NCBI GenBank assembly: GCA_017437125.1
Contig: JAFSBV010000002.1
Location: 1 to 64,000, forward strand
Direction: 5' to 3'
DNA: 64,000 bases
Source of the DNA: Bacteroidales bacterium
Lineage (GTDB): Bacteria > Bacteroidota > Bacteroidia > Bacteroidales > UBA932
Position numbers and translations under genes: made by a program. Shown piece by piece: positions 10,684-59,435 of the stretch (positions are counted from its first letter, which is position 1; every line of letters starts with the position of its first letter). Below the pieces are notes generated by a model that saw only the letters and a list, made by a program, of their open reading frames with translations, searched no databases and had not been told where the DNA came from.

Positions 10684-10759
10684 GGAATTCCCCCCTGATG
10701 CAACGAAAGAAGCACTTCCTTTCTTATCCGCTTCTCAAACTGCATCAGGGGGGAATTCC
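10684..10759. repeat. long intergenic palindrome
   Basis: Arms GGAATTCCCCCCTGATGCA (10684-10702) and TGCATCAGGGGGGAATTCC (10741-10759) pair perfectly over 19 bp around a 38-nt loop. It lies just beyond the GH20 stop codon, so it may end that transcript, but there is no T-tract on either side. The stem is far longer than a normal terminator. Confidence 0.8.
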
Positions 10760-23517: not shown

Positions 23518-25104
23518 ATGAAACGTTACTTTTCGATCGCGCTCGCAGCGCTTGCAATCGCAGCCTGCCAGAAACCTGATGCTCCGGAGATCATCCGTCC
23601 GGAAACAGCACCAGGAAAGATTCAGGTAGAACCTGTCATTACCAAAGCCACAGAAGTGAACTTCGAGAACGGCGACATGATAGGTCTGACATTGACAAAG
23701 GTCAACGATACTCAGAGCTATGCCGCAAATGAGTGTCTTACATTTGACGGTGATCTGTTCTCAGGAGAACTGATGTGGTATGCCGATGCCTATTCCGAGG
23801 CTGACGTCTTTGCATATTATCCATATTCTGAAGAAGGTACGCCTGAGGTTTATTCCGTTTTCGAGGATCAGACAGACGGTATCGGACAGGCCGACTTCAT
23901 GGCTGCATCAAAGAAGGGTGTCCTCCCTACTCCGAATGCCGTCACAATGGTCTTCAAGCATATGATGACCAAGATTGTAGTGAATATCGAAAATCTTTCC
24001 GGATCTGAAATCGAGACTGTAAGGATTCTCGGTGGTGATGCAATATGCGGGCTTGACCTTCTGAATCTCGCCATCCTCCCTTACACAGGCGAAGCTCCTG
24101 CAATCGTGTCTGAGGTCACCGCTTATGAAGATGTTGCAGGTGAAGTATGGAAGGCTATCATCATTCCTCAGACAGTCGCACTGGAGGTGGAAGTGAACCT
24201 TTCTAACGGAAAGAAGATCACCCAGCCGCTTGCCGAGATGACCCTCAAGTCAGGAGGACAGTATTCCATCAATGCACGTCTTGTCCAGGACAATATGATA
24301 GTAAGCGCTTCCGGCGAAATCGAGAACTGGACTGACGAGGGTGAAATCGATTTCGAGGGCGAAAGCAGCTCTGAAGATACCCCTGTCGATTTTACAGAAT
24401 ATGAGGGTTACTTCGTATATGACGGAGTGGAATATAAGACAGCAGAGCTCGCTGACGGCAACATATGGATGGCAGAGAACCTCCGTTTCATCCCACGCGG
24501 AAAGACCGTTTCAAGCGATCCTGCAGCCGATGCGGGCATCTGGTATCCTGCCGCAAACGCAGAAAAGACTGCTGATCCTGCACTCGTGGAGAGCCTCGGA
24601 CTTCTTTATGATGCAGCTACAGCATTCGGAGTTTCTTCAATTACAGCAGCAAACGCAGATTCATTCGAAGGGACTCAAGGTATCTGCCCTCCGGGCTGGC
24701 ACATCCCTACCGTTACCGAGATGACCGGTCTCGTAGGCCACAGTTCTAACAGCGACCTGATCAATACGGAAGCACCATATTATGATGCCACCATCAAGGG
24801 TGCAAGCATCGCAGCTCTTGCTGAAGCAGGATGGCCTTGGCAGTTCGCAAGCTGCAGAAACAAGGCAGGTACAAGCTCAAACGGCGCATACCTGGTGACC
24901 AGCTACAACGGCATTTACGGAGTCATGTCATACCTCATTGGTTCGTCATTGCATCAGGTCACTACAAATGACGACGGCAGTCTCAAGAATATCCAGTACC
25001 ATTACCTCATGCCGCTTTACAACGCGTCGAACGAGAAGGTTTCTGTGGCATACGGCAACTTCCTCGCAGGAGCATCCCTCCGCTGCGTGAAGGACGCCGA
25101 GTAA
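23518..25104 (+). CDS. fimbrillin-like lipoprotein with C-terminal FISUMP domain
   Basis: 528 residues, lipobox AIAAC with Cys17. Residues about 30-275 look like the fimbrillin A/Mfa-like fold (LFSGELMWYADAYSEADVFA, TMVFKHMMTKIVVNIENL). After an acidic linker (ENWTDEGEIDFEGESSSED) comes a FISUMP domain, about 310-528, with NIWMAENLRF, LYDAATAF, GICPPGWHIPTVTEM and the closing LRCVKDAE. FISUMP domains are surface modules first noted in Fibrobacter. Last gene of the receptor operon, 12 bp after the barrel gene; probably a surface-displayed adhesin or subunit. Terminated by the palindrome at 25124. Confidence 0.82.
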   Translation: MKRYFSIALAALAIAACQKPDAPEIIRPETAPGKIQVEPVITKATEVNFENGDMIGLTLTKVNDTQSYAANECLTFDGDLFSGELMWYADAYSEADVFAYYPYSEEGTPEVYSVFEDQTDGIGQADFMAASKKGVLPTPNAVTMVFKHMMTKIVVNIENLSGSEIETVRILGGDAICGLDLLNLAILPYTGEAPAIVSEVTAYEDVAGEVWKAIIIPQTVALEVEVNLSNGKKITQPLAEMTLKSGGQYSINARLVQDNMIVSASGEIENWTDEGEIDFEGESSSEDTPVDFTEYEGYFVYDGVEYKTAELADGNIWMAENLRFIPRGKTVSSDPAADAGIWYPAANAEKTADPALVESLGLLYDAATAFGVSSITAANADSFEGTQGICPPGWHIPTVTEMTGLVGHSSNSDLINTEAPYYDATIKGASIAALAEAGWPWQFASCRNKAGTSSNGAYLVTSYNGIYGVMSYLIGSSLHQVTTNDDGSLKNIQYHYLMPLYNASNEKVSVAYGNFLAGASLRCVKDAE

Positions 25105-25123
25105 CATAATCATACAAGACTTA

Positions 25124-25183
25124 CTCCACCCCACCGTGACATGAGAAGCATTTTCCTGCTTCAGGTATCACGGTGGGGTGGAG
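25124..25183. repeat. palindromic element, left copy, bounding higBA
   Basis: 16-bp perfect stem CTCCACCCCACCGTGA (25124-25139) with its complement (25168-25183) around a 28-nt loop, which itself can fold through GAAGCA/TGCTTC. TTGTTT follows the stem, so it can terminate the operon upstream. The copy at 26040-26099 is its reverse complement. Confidence 0.88.
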
Positions 25184-25350
25184 TTGTTTGTGACAAAAAC
25201 CGAATTATTGGGACGAAAATCCCGACTTATAAAAAAAAGTATTTCTTTATTTTTAACAGATTGCCTGTTATTCTTCTGACTTTTGCCAATAACAGACATA
25301 TCAGAACAAGTTATCTAAAATATAATTTTGTTATTTATAAAATAATGCAA

Positions 25351-25358
25351 TAATTTTG
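25351..25358 (+). promoter_or_regulatory. -7 element of higBA
   Basis: TAATTTTG matches TAnnTTTG and ends 4 bp before the higB ATG, so the transcript would have almost no leader. A second TAATTTTG lies at 25323-25330 and would give a leader of about 27 nt. HigA probably binds around here (inference). Confidence 0.55.
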
Positions 25359-25362
25359 TGTC

Positions 25363-25656
25363 ATGAGAATAATATCTGTCAATAAACTGAAGGACTATTG
25401 GGACAGGCATCCGGAAACAAGGATTCCGTTGAGCGAGTGGTACGTGAAGGTAGGGAAAGCACAGTGGAAATCATTCAGCGACATGAAAAGAGATTTCAAT
25501 TCAGTTGATTATGTCGGTAATCAAAGATATGTATTCAACATTAAAGGAAACAGTCACAGACTGGTGGTTGCCGTCAAATTCACACCCCAGCTGGTGTATA
25601 TAAGGTTTGTAGGCACGCATAATGAATATGACAGGATTGATGTAAAAACCATCTGA
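25363..25656 (+). CDS. higB: HigB-type toxin, mRNA interferase
   Basis: 97 residues matching the HigB_toxin family: the N-terminal helix with RIISVNKLKDYWDRHPE, WYVKVGKAQWKSFSDMKRDF, the core YVFNIKGNSHRLVVAVKF and the C-terminal YIRFVGTHNEYDRID. These are ribosome-dependent mRNA endonucleases whose basic residues cleave codons in the A site. Toxin before antitoxin with a 2-bp gap is the usual higBA order. It lies in AT-rich DNA between two inverted palindromes, which suggests acquisition as a cassette. Confidence 0.92.
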   Translation: MRIISVNKLKDYWDRHPETRIPLSEWYVKVGKAQWKSFSDMKRDFNSVDYVGNQRYVFNIKGNSHRLVVAVKFTPQLVYIRFVGTHNEYDRIDVKTI

Positions 25657-25658
25657 TT

Positions 25659-26021
25659 ATGGCAAAGATCAAGAATAAAGAAACTTATGAGGCGATAATG
25701 AAGAGAATCGATGATCTGTTCGACAGCACGGATGAAAACACTTCTCCAGAAGATTCCAGGCTGCTGGAACTCGATTTATTGTCCGAGCTTGTGGAAGAAT
25801 ACGAAAAGGAGGCATTCCCTATAGAGACCCCATCGCTTGCATCTGTCATCCAATACAGAATGCACGAAATGAAACTGTCTCAGAAGGATCTTGCTGCAAT
25901 TCTTGGCATGACAGCACCACGTCTTTGCGAAATACTCAACGGAAAAAAAGAACCGACTTTTCAGCAAGCAAAGCAGATCGCAGCAAAGCTCAGTATAGAT
26001 GCTGATATAATACTGGCATAA
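25659..26021 (+). CDS. higA: HigA-type antitoxin with XRE helix-turn-helix
   Basis: 120 residues. The C-terminal half is a Cro/C1-type DNA-binding domain (MKLSQKDLAAILGMTAPRLC followed by EILNGKKEPTFQQAKQIAAKL). The acidic N-terminal half (DDLFDSTDENTSPEDSRLLE and onward) should wrap the toxin. It neutralises HigB and represses the operon. Terminated by the right-hand palindrome. Confidence 0.92.
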   Translation: MAKIKNKETYEAIMKRIDDLFDSTDENTSPEDSRLLELDLLSELVEEYEKEAFPIETPSLASVIQYRMHEMKLSQKDLAAILGMTAPRLCEILNGKKEPTFQQAKQIAAKLSIDADIILA

Positions 26022-26039
26022 CACCTCCGTCTCAGACTG

Positions 26040-26099
26040 ATCCACCCCACCGTGATACCTGAAGCAGGAAAATGCTTCTCATGTCACGGAGGGGTGGAG
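26040..26099. repeat. palindromic element, right copy, inverted
   Basis: CCACCCCACCGTGA (26042-26055) pairs with TCACGGAGGGGTGG, one mismatch at 26090. The 28-nt loop (26056-26083) is the exact reverse complement of the loop at 25140-25167. TTGTTT follows the stem here too, so the flank has the same orientation while the loop is inverted. Confidence 0.88.
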
Positions 26100-26168
26100 T
26101 TGTTTAAGCCATTAAAAATGATTATCTTCGTGCCAAATGTGCAAATTTGAAATAACACAATAAATATC

Positions 26169-28184
26169 ATGGCAAAAAGATCAACAATAATCAGAAACTG
26201 GCCTAAATATCTCCTCCAGTGGGGAGTGCTTATCGCCTTGATTGTCTTCATTACAGGAATAATTCCTTCGGAAGAGGCGGTGGATCCTGAGGCATATTGC
26301 CCGATGGGCGGTCTTCAGGCTCTTGCGACCTATCTTGCGAACAACAGCCTTCCATGCAGCATGTCGTCACTTCAGGTGATGATGGGTATAGCCCTCGTTG
26401 CTGCAGTCGTGCTTTTCAGCAAGCTCTTCTGTGCATATATCTGTCCGCTCGGAACAGTGCAGGACCTTATCGTGAAGGCACGCAATGCGATGCATATCAA
26501 GAGCATCAAGGTACGTAACGGTTCGGCAGCAGACAAGGTTCTGCGCATCGTGAAGTACGCACTCGTGTTCTGGATATTCTACATGACCGTCAATGCGAGC
26601 GAGCTCTTCTGCAAGAATCTTGATCCTTACTATGCGGTAGCCACCGGCTTCAAGGGAGAGATAACTCTCTGGATGTCAATCGTATCCATATGTCTTGTGG
26701 TGGTCGGAAGCTTCCTTATCGACATGTTCTGGTGCCGCTATCTCTGTCCGCTCGGAGCGATATCCAACTCGCTCAAGTTCTGGATATGGATCGGTGTCCT
26801 CTTCGGAATATATTATGCAGCAAATGCTCTCGGAGCAGGAATCCCATGGGCAGCTCTCCTTGGTGCGTTCTGCATCCTCGGATATATCCTGGAGGCCTTC
26901 CACGCAAAGCCAAAGTTCCAGATCCTTCATGTGACCAAGGACGACGGACTCTGCAACAACTGCGGACTCTGTGTGAAGAAATGTCCATATCACATCGACG
27001 TGAAGTCCGTTCACAGCGGAAAGGTAGCCCATGTTGACTGCACCCTCTGCGGAGAATGTGTGGCGGCATGTTCGACAAAGGCCCTCAACATCGGCATATG
27101 CAAACCGACCAGAAGCAGGATATGGAACCTTGTTCCTGCAGTCCTGACCGTAGGACTCATAGCATTCGGAATGTGGGCCGGCGGAAAGATCGAGCTTCCT
27201 ACAATCGACATGAAATGGGGAATCGAGACTGTGGCTGAAGACGGCACGGTGACTCAGCTCGTTGATCCGGATGCCCTCCAGACCACTTCCATCGAGGGGC
27301 TCCGCTCAGTAAAGTGCTACGGAAGCTCAATGACATTCAAAGCAAAACTTGAGAAGGTTCCGGGCGTACATGGAGTAAAGACCTATGTCAAGAGACATTC
27401 TGCAGACATCCTTTACGACCCTGCCAAGACAAATCCTGACAAGATCCAGGAGGCTATCTATGTCCCTTCGAAATTCAGGGTTGCGACACCTGACCACACC
27501 GCTGTTCCCGAACTCAAGATCGTCACCATCAGGACAGAAGGAATGTACGACAAGATGGACATCAATTATCTCGGTATGCAGATGCGTCTGACAGGCAAGA
27601 AGATATATGGTCTTGAGACCGAATTCGCATGTCCTCTCATAGTACGTGTATATATGGATCCTGCCGAGGAACTCGATGAGGACTGGTTCGAGGAAATCGT
27701 GGAGAAGGAAGTGCTTGCAATGCCTGTTCACGGAGGCGGAACCAACGATATCGAGCTGAACTACAAGTTCGAGGATTATGAAGGCGAGACCGGACGCATC
27801 AGTACGGAGCAGTTCGTAAGGAACATGTTCTCTCCGTTCAGCGTGCAGTGGAAGAGCCGCATAGAGGCAGCCGAGGGCAAGCAGCAGTATGTATATGAGA
27901 TAGTTGACAAGAACTACGAGAAGCCTATCATCCTGCGCAACATGCCGTTCCTGAGCAACCATCTTTCGAGATTCGATGGCGTGATCGGAGTATATCTTGA
28001 TCTCAACAAGGATCTCCAGCCGGCTATCCGGATCAGATATGCCGATCCTATGACGGAGGCTAAGCTCTGGGAGCTCATGACTATGGAGACATGGACCATC
28101 ACCTACAATAAGGATGATGTGCGTGAGGAGGGAGCGAAGATCAGTTTCAAGACTCCGGGAGTGTCATATGAATACAATGGTTAA
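26169..28184 (+). CDS. membrane polyferredoxin (NapH/CcoG-like) with degenerate HMA-like domain
   Basis: Predicted inner-membrane electron-transfer protein of 671 residues. The membrane part has several hydrophobic spans and the paired motifs CAYICPLG (C88, C92) and CRYLCPLG (C189, C193) of NapH-type proteins. Two [4Fe-4S] sites follow: C262/C265/C268/C272 and C291/C294/C297/C301. After one more span (about 318-336) a soluble part begins whose first segment, about 370-425, follows a heavy-metal-associated pattern (LEKVPGVHGVKTYV, ADILYDP, IQEAIY) but has only one Cys where the metal-binding CxxC should be. Family members assist redox or metal handling; the partner here is unknown. It stands alone between the HigBA cassette and a palindrome. 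Confidence 0.82.
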   Translation: MAKRSTIIRNWPKYLLQWGVLIALIVFITGIIPSEEAVDPEAYCPMGGLQALATYLANNSLPCSMSSLQVMMGIALVAAVVLFSKLFCAYICPLGTVQDLIVKARNAMHIKSIKVRNGSAADKVLRIVKYALVFWIFYMTVNASELFCKNLDPYYAVATGFKGEITLWMSIVSICLVVVGSFLIDMFWCRYLCPLGAISNSLKFWIWIGVLFGIYYAANALGAGIPWAALLGAFCILGYILEAFHAKPKFQILHVTKDDGLCNNCGLCVKKCPYHIDVKSVHSGKVAHVDCTLCGECVAACSTKALNIGICKPTRSRIWNLVPAVLTVGLIAFGMWAGGKIELPTIDMKWGIETVAEDGTVTQLVDPDALQTTSIEGLRSVKCYGSSMTFKAKLEKVPGVHGVKTYVKRHSADILYDPAKTNPDKIQEAIYVPSKFRVATPDHTAVPELKIVTIRTEGMYDKMDINYLGMQMRLTGKKIYGLETEFACPLIVRVYMDPAEELDEDWFEEIVEKEVLAMPVHGGGTNDIELNYKFEDYEGETGRISTEQFVRNMFSPFSVQWKSRIEAAEGKQQYVYEIVDKNYEKPIILRNMPFLSNHLSRFDGVIGVYLDLNKDLQPAIRIRYADPMTEAKLWELMTMETWTITYNKDDVREEGAKISFKTPGVSYEYNG

Positions 28185-28291
28185 AAGATAATCAAGGTCT
28201 GAAAACTAAATCCCTCCCACTCCTGCGGAGCGGGCCCCTCCCGTTCACAAGGCCACGGGCGGCCATGGTTTTCAGACCTTGATTACCTTTT
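28181..28291. repeat. large palindrome with GC-rich loop
   Basis: Left arm 28181-28206 and right arm 28266-28291 pair over about 25 bp with one internal mismatch (core AATCAAGGTCTGAAAAC). The 60-nt loop is GC-rich and contains CTGCGGAGCGGGC, a core also found at 30847. The left arm overlaps the stop codon of the upstream gene; it may be a terminator and a REP-like repeat at once. Confidence 0.8.
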
Positions 28292-28318
28292 AGCAGCAAC
28301 AAATAATTTGTGACAGAT

Positions 28319-30803: not shown

Positions 30804-30878
30804 CACCAATCCCCGGATAGGAGCGAGCGAAGCATATCCCCATGCTTCTGCGGAGCGAGCTCCATCCGGGGATTGGTG
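30804..30878. repeat. palindrome with nested hairpin
   Basis: CACCAATCCCCGGAT (30804-30818) pairs perfectly with ATCCGGGGATTGGTG (30864-30878). The interior folds again through GAAGCAT/ATGCTTC and carries GAGCGAGCGAAGCATAT and CTGCGGAGCGAGC cores. Confidence 0.8.
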
Positions 30879-59327: not shown

Positions 59328-59350
59328 TCACCGACTCTGTTCCATAAAAA

Positions 59351-59416
59351 TGACCCCTGCCACAACTCGAGAAGCAAAAAACAAAGGATATGCTTCTCTT
59401 CTCGTGGCAGGGATCA
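59351..59416. terminator. bidirectional terminator between GH43 and DUF4252 genes
   Basis: Outer arms TGACCCCTGCCAC (59351-59363) and GTGGCAGGGATCA (59404-59416) pair with one mismatch, and inner arms GAGAAGCA (59369-59376) and TGCTTCTC (59391-59398) pair fully. TTTTAT follows on the plus side, TTTTTATGG on the minus side. Confidence 0.8.
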
Positions 59417-59435
59417 TTTTATATGAACATATATA

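Follow-up and report, generated by a model that had tools for sequence, protein, structure and literature searches.

A toxin-antitoxin gene pair in the genome of a Bacteroidales bacterium lies between two palindromes that have nearly the same stems and exactly opposite centers. This arrangement raises the question of whether the palindromes are the ends of a mobile or invertible toxin-antitoxin module, as had been suggested from the sequence alone, or have come to surround the genes in some other way. In what follows, the window is the whole stretch of DNA that was analyzed (64,000 nt, positions 1 to 64,000 of contig JAFSBV010000002.1), and numbers preceded by G, C, and L denote genomes, contigs, and loci, respectively. 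The genes and palindromes at the locus are as follows:

23518 to 25104, + strand: FIM, a fimbrillin-like gene with a FISUMP (Fib_succ_major) domain, the outer left neighbor (PF13149, 116.9 bits; PF09603, 45.8 bits)
25123 to 25184, + strand: left palindrome, 18 nt past the FIM stop; predicted hairpin with a GTTGTTT tail on the + strand
25140 to 25167, + strand: center of the left palindrome, a short form of the family core (GAAGCA TTTTCC TGCTTC)
25363 to 25656, + strand: higB, toxin gene, 97 aa (PF09907 HigB_toxin, 109 bits, cut-off 27; PADLOC PD-Lambda-2_A, E value 1.3e-37)
25659 to 26021, + strand: higA, antitoxin gene, 120 aa, helix-turn-helix (PF01381 [HTH_3], 35.6 bits)
26041 to 26098, − strand: right palindrome, 19 nt past the higA stop, with the core reversed and a GTTGTTT tail on the + strand
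26056 to 26083, − strand: center of the right palindrome, the exact reverse complement of 25140 to 25167
26169 to 28184, + strand: FeS, a 4Fe-4S membrane protein gene, the outer right neighbor (NapH-like part, below the cut-off)

The higBA locus and its two palindromes

Judged by gene content, the pair is an ordinary HigBA, and the palindrome bracket appears to be its sole oddity. As in HigBA type II toxin-antitoxin systems generally, a HigB_toxin domain is combined with a helix-turn-helix antitoxin and the toxin gene comes first, with the antitoxin gene 2 nt downstream; the pair differs from such systems in its bracket, the genes themselves being nothing unusual. No NCBIfam match to higB was found at an E value of ≤0.001, and higA scored 21.8 bits against TIGR02607 (HigA), under the cut-off of 47.7. 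Close HigBA relatives (84 to 87% HigB identity) are located elsewhere, at L045 to L047, upstream of a tsaE-like gene. Two further relatives of the pair, at L015 (G053) and L107, have one like terminator hairpin on each side in direct orientation.

The two 28-nt loops match at 28 of 28 positions when one is reversed and at 14 of 28 in direct comparison. As the loop matches its own reverse complement at just 14 of 28 positions, the other 14 are informative, and each favors inversion of the center. By BLAST, the reversed right palindrome shares 98% identity with the left over 60 bp. These comparisons confirm both the perfect complementarity of the loops and the enclosure of higBA within a 60-bp inverted repeat that the sequence-only reading had reported. 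Viewed as an inverted repeat, the bracket has 72-nt arms with 92% identity and 834 nt between them, so that inverted repeats lie around a segment as they do at an inverton. The segment common to both copies begins 20 nt from the FIM stop, and the stems differ in two respects: one arm of the right copy has an A/T mismatch, and the two outermost left-side bases are not the same (AC versus GA). Past the stems, the flanks were compared over 12 positions per side. In direct orientation, the right side agrees at 9 of 12 positions, including 7 of 7 for GTTGTTT, and the left side agrees at 2 of 12 in register and, once shifted by one base (AGACT), at 7 of 12. In inverted orientation, one side agrees at 7 of 12 positions and the other at 2 of 12. 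The flanks agree better in direct than in inverted orientation, with the inverted match still continuing slightly on one side. The claim that the outer flanks agree directly therefore holds for the right side and overall, and on the left it depends on the one-base shift.

The genome is a 91%-complete draft in 99 contigs, and only these two copies of the window stem were found in it by BLAST; further copies enclosing other cargo, for which a search had been suggested, did not turn up in this draft. An exact-stem pattern matched 1 of 400 genomes of the genus, the one that carries the window. Neither the exact stem nor two exact core patterns occurred in viral contigs, and Rfam returned nothing at curated scores over positions 24900 to 26300.

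Predicted folds of the two hairpins with 45-nt flanks have energies of −49.6 and −42.6 kcal/mol. Both hairpins are stable and GC rich, lie 18 to 20 nt past stop codons, and carry the T-rich tail GTTGTTT, a position and shape that fit a putative role as terminators. A terminator scan flagged the right copy alone, and the left copy was probably missed because the scan allows loops of 3 to 8 nt. Elsewhere in the window, at positions 28182 to 28292, a long stem surrounds a 61-nt center.

The FeS gene had a match in 59 of the 400 genus genomes, and 30 FeS loci were examined, namely, the window and 29 others. FIM adjoins FeS with no higBA between them in 12 of the 29 relatives' loci, and HigB was absent within about 1.5 kb at all 29. 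The FIM-FeS gaps range from 7 to 669 nt: six of the 12 are only 7 to 15 nt long, four contain ordinary hairpins whose loops are short and whose stems are other ones, one of 62 nt has no hairpin, and one (G265) contains a pair of large palindromes that differ in their stems and have related centers. As the gaps of the relatives lack higBA, the pair is probably a newcomer in the gap between FIM and FeS. The search for empty sites that had been suggested as a check thus gave gaps without higBA. A model of the family core described below gave one clear match at the 29 loci, 5′ of FeS in G322 (L127, E value 5e-5), and the window stretch 5′ of FeS, AATGATTATCTTCGTGCCAAATGTGC, was found again in the relative L134. 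The G265 palindromes (L129, 3571 to 3653 and 4034 to 4122; CGTCTCGCGGAATAC...), with their related centers, perhaps represent a second core family of the same architecture. At L249 (G322, around position 2723), a FISUMP-like C-terminal remnant (compare FIM) on the strand opposite FeS ends just before a core hairpin.

A dispersed family of hairpins with a common core

The center GAAGCA...TGCTTC is common to other palindromes of the window, which have different stems and had not been noted in the sequence-only reading:

10684 to 10759, + strand: family member with another stem (GGAATTCCCCCCTGATGCA)
about 30804 to 30878, + strand: family member with another stem (CACCAATCCCCGGAT), long-core form
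59338 to 59429, − strand: family member with another stem (AAAATGACCCCTGCCAC), flanked by two convergent reading frames

In the genome as a whole, GAAGCA-gap-TGCTTC occurs at 28 sites, versus 7 for a reversed-pattern control. Two sequence models of the core (R1 and R2) were made from alignments of 17 and then 25 centers from this genome alone, the left window copy being one of the 25 sequences in the second. At an E value of ≤0.05, R2 matched 143 times, and the matches were spread over 18 of the 30 genus genomes searched. The richest genomes had 32, 27 (the genome of the window, largely by construction), 25, 19, and 11 matches; six of the 18 positive genomes had just one or two weak matches, and 12 of the 30 had none. 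The window copies are not among the 143 matches at this threshold, and the window cores scored 14.6 bits against R1 (E value 0.06). They were assigned to the family by their shared center ends, arm architecture, and position and not by score; their centers appear to be short-form, by score weak, members.

A set of 125 instances was drawn from 12 genomes, all of the same genus; it consists of 123 of the 143 R2 matches and the two window copies. The 20 R2 matches left out comprise three from the genome of the window (E values of 0.001 to 0.04), four tandem copies at G260:C64, three from G322 (one of them same-stem), one match in each of G416, G021, and G323, and, in six other genomes, seven matches that are either single or weak. 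A search of the literature by title and start of abstract, with most subscription journals outside its scope, found no paper describing this hairpin family. At the end of G000:C62 and the start of G000:C74 (L175 and L179), hairpins share one flank and arm and differ on the other side; they are near contig ends and possibly represent a single boundary of a repeat in the assembly.

The arms pair across the core in 118 of the 125 instances, compared with 17 of 427 control places, and the matched-arm score has a median of 17.5. When arms were swapped between members of the window's genome, the median was 5, with 70 of 650 combinations scoring at least 8. Fully private arms at each site were rejected as a description: this is mostly so, but 21 of 325 pairs among the 26 members of this genome (the window pair counted) have arms alike at a score of at least 9. 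The arms of the left window copy resemble those of G000:C55:34982 (score of 10.5). The family is therefore a conserved, asymmetric core of about 34 bp set in arms that are self-complementary and, for the most part, different at each site.

Copying of the arms from nearby DNA was likewise set aside as a rule. Exact matches of at least 11 nt to flanking DNA were found for 26 of 230 arms versus 37 of 426 controls and matches of at least 14 nt for 19 of 230 arms versus 8 of 426 controls; 16 of these 19 long matches are same-stem neighbors or the window pair, which leaves three. At L242 (G322) and at L243 and L244 (G416), several core hairpins within one region have one common stem (CAAAGCCTGCTGTGAGC), and the relative orientation of the gene blocks around them differs between G322 and G416, as if rearranged at the hairpins. 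No same-stem terminator lacking the core was found at 10 loci orthologous to 59338 to 59429, among which only G323 aligned closely on both sides; the G323 terminator at this site has a different stem. An arm of that terminator (L351) repeats 16 nt (GTTTGTGGCCGACCTG) that are present just upstream.

Placement could be read for the 121 instances with enough flank by means of a simple reading-frame caller, with no control. Sixty-two lie between convergent frames (median distance to either frame end, about 40 nt), 31 lie between tandem frames, 22 are inside a frame of at least 110 aa (some of these frames probably not being genes), and 6 have no called neighbor on one side. None of the 121 lies between divergent frames.

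Reversal, gain, and loss of the core

For a comparison of core direction between species, the elements were masked, their flanks were compared, and the direction of the core was then read. Among 78 orthologous cross-species pairs, the core runs in the same direction in 54 and is inverted in 24; where both flanks aligned, 29 pairs were the same and 10 inverted. Exclusion of the copies in same-stem clusters dropped 18 of the 78 pairs and left 43 of 60 the same and 17 of 60 inverted, with both orientations present at 9 of 25 sites. At four of these nine sites, an inverted pair has arms that align at a score of at least 12, so that one and the same element has most likely been reversed; at the other five, where no inverted pair has such arms, separate insertions are possible. 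In the cleanest flip (G021:C9:48185 versus G260:C39:80468), the arms are the same and the center is reversed. Most of the small arm differences between G000:C48 and G328:C4 are reversed along with the core, which would place the switch points in the outer stem. At G000:C43:122727 and its three partners, most of these pairs being aligned on one flank, the core is kept between unrelated arms (scores of 5.5 to 7.5).

Comparisons of homologous arms gave 366 unchanged arm pairs, 40 changed on both sides and paired, 16 changed on one side and paired, and 57 broken; for unrelated arms, the corresponding numbers were 353, 144, 65, and 259. With more broken than cochanged pairs in both sets, this is weak evidence for covariation. 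Since the core flips, a function bound to the RNA of one strand seems unlikely.

The sequence-only reading had explained the inverted loops by a flip of either the loop segment or the whole cassette. The first of these, reversal of the loop alone or of the whole hairpin, recurs at orthologous sites of the family and stands. The second was rejected, because recombination between inverted repeats flips the gene segment and leaves the repeats as they were, and a whole-cassette flip alone would not give inverted loops.

A whole palindrome present in G416 is absent from G322, whose surrounding sequence is 97 to 98% identical, and GGCA stands at both of its ends; the palindrome could have been inserted into G416 with duplication of a short target, as a MITE would be, or could have been deleted from G322 by slippage. 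The core also occurs within protein genes. In the genome of the window, it lies in an ABC-F ATPase gene (EttA/Uup-like, below the cut-offs for these), with the frame open, and in the ABC-F gene of G260 it is reversed and has other arms, the frame again being open. The motif used to compare the ABC-F proteins missed 7 of 28 loci; the core model was then run on all 30 loci and found the core in 2 of them, and the relatives without the core keep the frame. At the same point, G322 and G416 have an 8- to 9-bp inverted repeat with a loop of 11 or 9 nt and no core, which may be a preinsertion target or a scar left when the element was lost. Conserved protein genes contain cores with palindromic arms in open frames at L201 (714 to 2606, contig C43 of the window's genome), L290, L251, and L245, and in G260 open frames run through the core in the DNA polymerase III gamma/tau gene and in a TrmN-like gene with several tandem copies. 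At L321 (G024), a TTCTCGACTGCGCTCGAAATGACA-like repeat is found at the same ABC-F protein loop; such repeats are common between Bacteroidetes genes.

We tentatively suggest, as possible rather than probable, that the core may be an inherited unit of about 34 bp that resides in hairpin loops, enters terminators and tolerant protein loops, flips, and outlasts self-complementary arms that are rewritten around it. If so, genes such as higBA could also be captured by these hairpins as passengers.

Origin of the bracket and comparison with known systems

The observations to be explained are the bracket, the hairpin family, the recurrent flips between species, and the absence of higBA from the gap in relatives. 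In the reading that we consider probable, the window palindromes are two copies of one member of the dispersed, terminator-like hairpin family, which extends across the genus and lies mainly at the 3′ ends of genes; this member was duplicated around the incoming higBA, with the center of one copy flipped. An ordinary higBA module would have entered the FIM-FeS gap in this lineage, and a hairpin stretch of about 72 bp would have been duplicated in direct orientation on both sides of it, so that FIM and higBA would each end in one copy. The center of one copy would have been reversed, either later or simultaneously. The simplest cause of that reversal would be replication template switching between the palindrome arms, which keeps the arms matched. 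According to the accessible portions of two papers, template switching between inverted repeats gives arm homogenization and reversible spacer inversion (PMC8604942, PMC8794818), and matched arms and reversed spacers would be these two products. A break at an extruded hairpin might account for the duplication and the reversal in one step, if it left each end with a full palindrome, its center lying either way, and foreign DNA was then joined between the ends. We infer the order of these events, the mechanism of the duplication, the template switching, and the terminator function from the features described above. The reading in terms of duplication has to accommodate the short shared flank, the one-base shift on the left, the inverted match that extends past the stem on one side, and the weak core score of the window copies.

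Gene conversion, in which some other terminator that came with higBA or already lay beside it was overwritten by that of FIM with its center in reverse, is an unlikely source of the second copy. In its favor, same-stem copies near each other occur elsewhere (G416:C43, G416:C187, and G021:C23). Against it, the direct agreement at the locus extends slightly beyond the stem, and conversion limited to the stem would not require this.

A mobile or invertible toxin-antitoxin module with the palindromes as its ends, as originally proposed, is improbable on the evidence from other HigB loci and other family members. The inverted repeat around the pair speaks for such a module, whether taken as 60 bp at 98% or as 72-nt arms at 92%, and at L395 (G400) a Y1-transposase-like open reading frame (ORF) is likewise bracketed by two copies of one palindrome, unlike that of the window, whose loops are reversed (at about 1219 and 2550, reversed strand; CTACCCACGTGC...). 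Against it, the core model did not find the core in 80 other HigB loci (best E value, 0.11), and ends specific to toxin-antitoxin genes were rejected on this ground; an inverted repeat across the cassette (E value ≤1e-3) was present in 0 of 67 HigB loci with enough flank versus 2 of 370 control windows; the flanks agree better directly; and the bracket is the only one in the genome. Neither HigB nor HigA was found within about 1.3 kb on each side of the other 123 family instances. By these searches, the hairpin family is not tied to higBA, and its centers often flip at sites with no toxin gene close by. Nor is a gene bracketed by two like palindromes unique to higBA, another case besides L395 being a Y1-transposase-like gene between two similar palindromes at L382 (G258). 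Direct repeats across the cassette were detected in 5 of 67 HigB loci versus 7 of 370 controls (Fisher P = 0.024). One of the five, L107, has duplicated terminators, as does L015 outside the set; the other four are mixed, and no conclusion is based on this modest excess.

Little credence can be given to the view that the palindromes are REP-like ends, that a Y1 (REP-associated) transposase moved them, and that higBA traveled along as a passenger. ORFs matching PF01797 were found in 25 of 27 genus genomes (64 matches), two of them in the genome of the window and both weakly like REP_Tyr_transpos, below the cut-off. In the available text of PMC6006769, a Y1 subclass mostly in Bacteroidetes is described as having atypical flanking hairpins with copies elsewhere in the genome. 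Nevertheless, the core model gave one match, with an E value of 0.23, beside 22 distinct Y1 genes (25 loci) from among the 64 matches, and by eye the core counts do not track the Y1 counts. Furthermore, the GTAG/GTGG tetranucleotide at the hairpin foot that belongs to the REP/REPIN definition in that text is absent from the 5′ feet of both window palindromes on both strands, these two copies alone being considered.

It is very unlikely that a site-specific recombinase flips the cores. Bacteroidales have invertible promoters that are flipped by such an enzyme, and the flips between species are frequent; however, the arms mostly differ per site and so provide no common pair of flanking sites, and the ends of the flip between G000:C48 and G328:C4 fall in the outer stem. 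An active recombinase, for example, one reading the core itself, is conceivable. A palindrome collapsed or misjoined in metagenome assembly is hardly credible: the assembly is a draft made up of 99 contigs, but the window copies differ at stem positions, their unique flanks differ, and orthologous flips are seen in separate assemblies.

Among known systems, the pdif sites (XerC/XerD) of Acinetobacter plasmids are similar to the bracket in that toxin-antitoxin genes often lie between short imperfect palindromes. The XerC/XerD pdif site has an 11+6+11 layout, and the window loop happens to divide in the same way. Other family members do not have this layout, the spacing of the center varying in the family alignments, and a dif/pdif reading of the loop was therefore dropped; the chromosomal place and the lack of a link between the core and toxin-antitoxin genes are further differences. 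The hairpin family offers a plain explanation for gene modules whose palindromic ends seem to be mobile. SPRITE, BOX, and RUP of the pneumococcus are terminator-like dispersed repeats as well, a likeness drawn from part of a review's description and not from sequence. Rickettsia palindromic elements resemble the family in that they lie within the frames of conserved genes with the frame kept. They are characterized in the accessible part of PMC10969869 as elements of about 150 bp in ten families; in the family described here, mainly the center is shared, and the element is not conserved as a whole, as the median of 5 for swapped arms indicates.

REP/REPIN sequences with REP-associated tyrosine transposases share with the family their dispersed hairpins at gene ends, and Y1-like genes are present in the genus. 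The family differs in its conserved center and mostly private arms, in its copy number of at most a few tens per genome, and in having no copies beside the Y1 genes analyzed. Dispersed bacterial palindromes of the REP type are usually recognized by their conserved stems, and repeat finders that rely on whole-element similarity could miss a family with a conserved, flipping center and mostly private arms. A parallel in outcome is template-switch mutation, which also gives matched arms and a reversed center at a perfect palindrome and is reversible and recurrent. The published cases, as far as the consulted excerpts describe them, involve short spacers, with 2 to 5 substitutions in yeast genes and rRNA loops that are typically 4 nt and up to 7 to 8 nt; here, in contrast, centers of about 28 to 34 bp flip at many dispersed sites with a common center. 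The family is also a natural record of spacer inversion, with one center found in both orientations at orthologous sites in several species, so that genome comparisons could be used to measure how often hairpin centers flip and what makes them do so.
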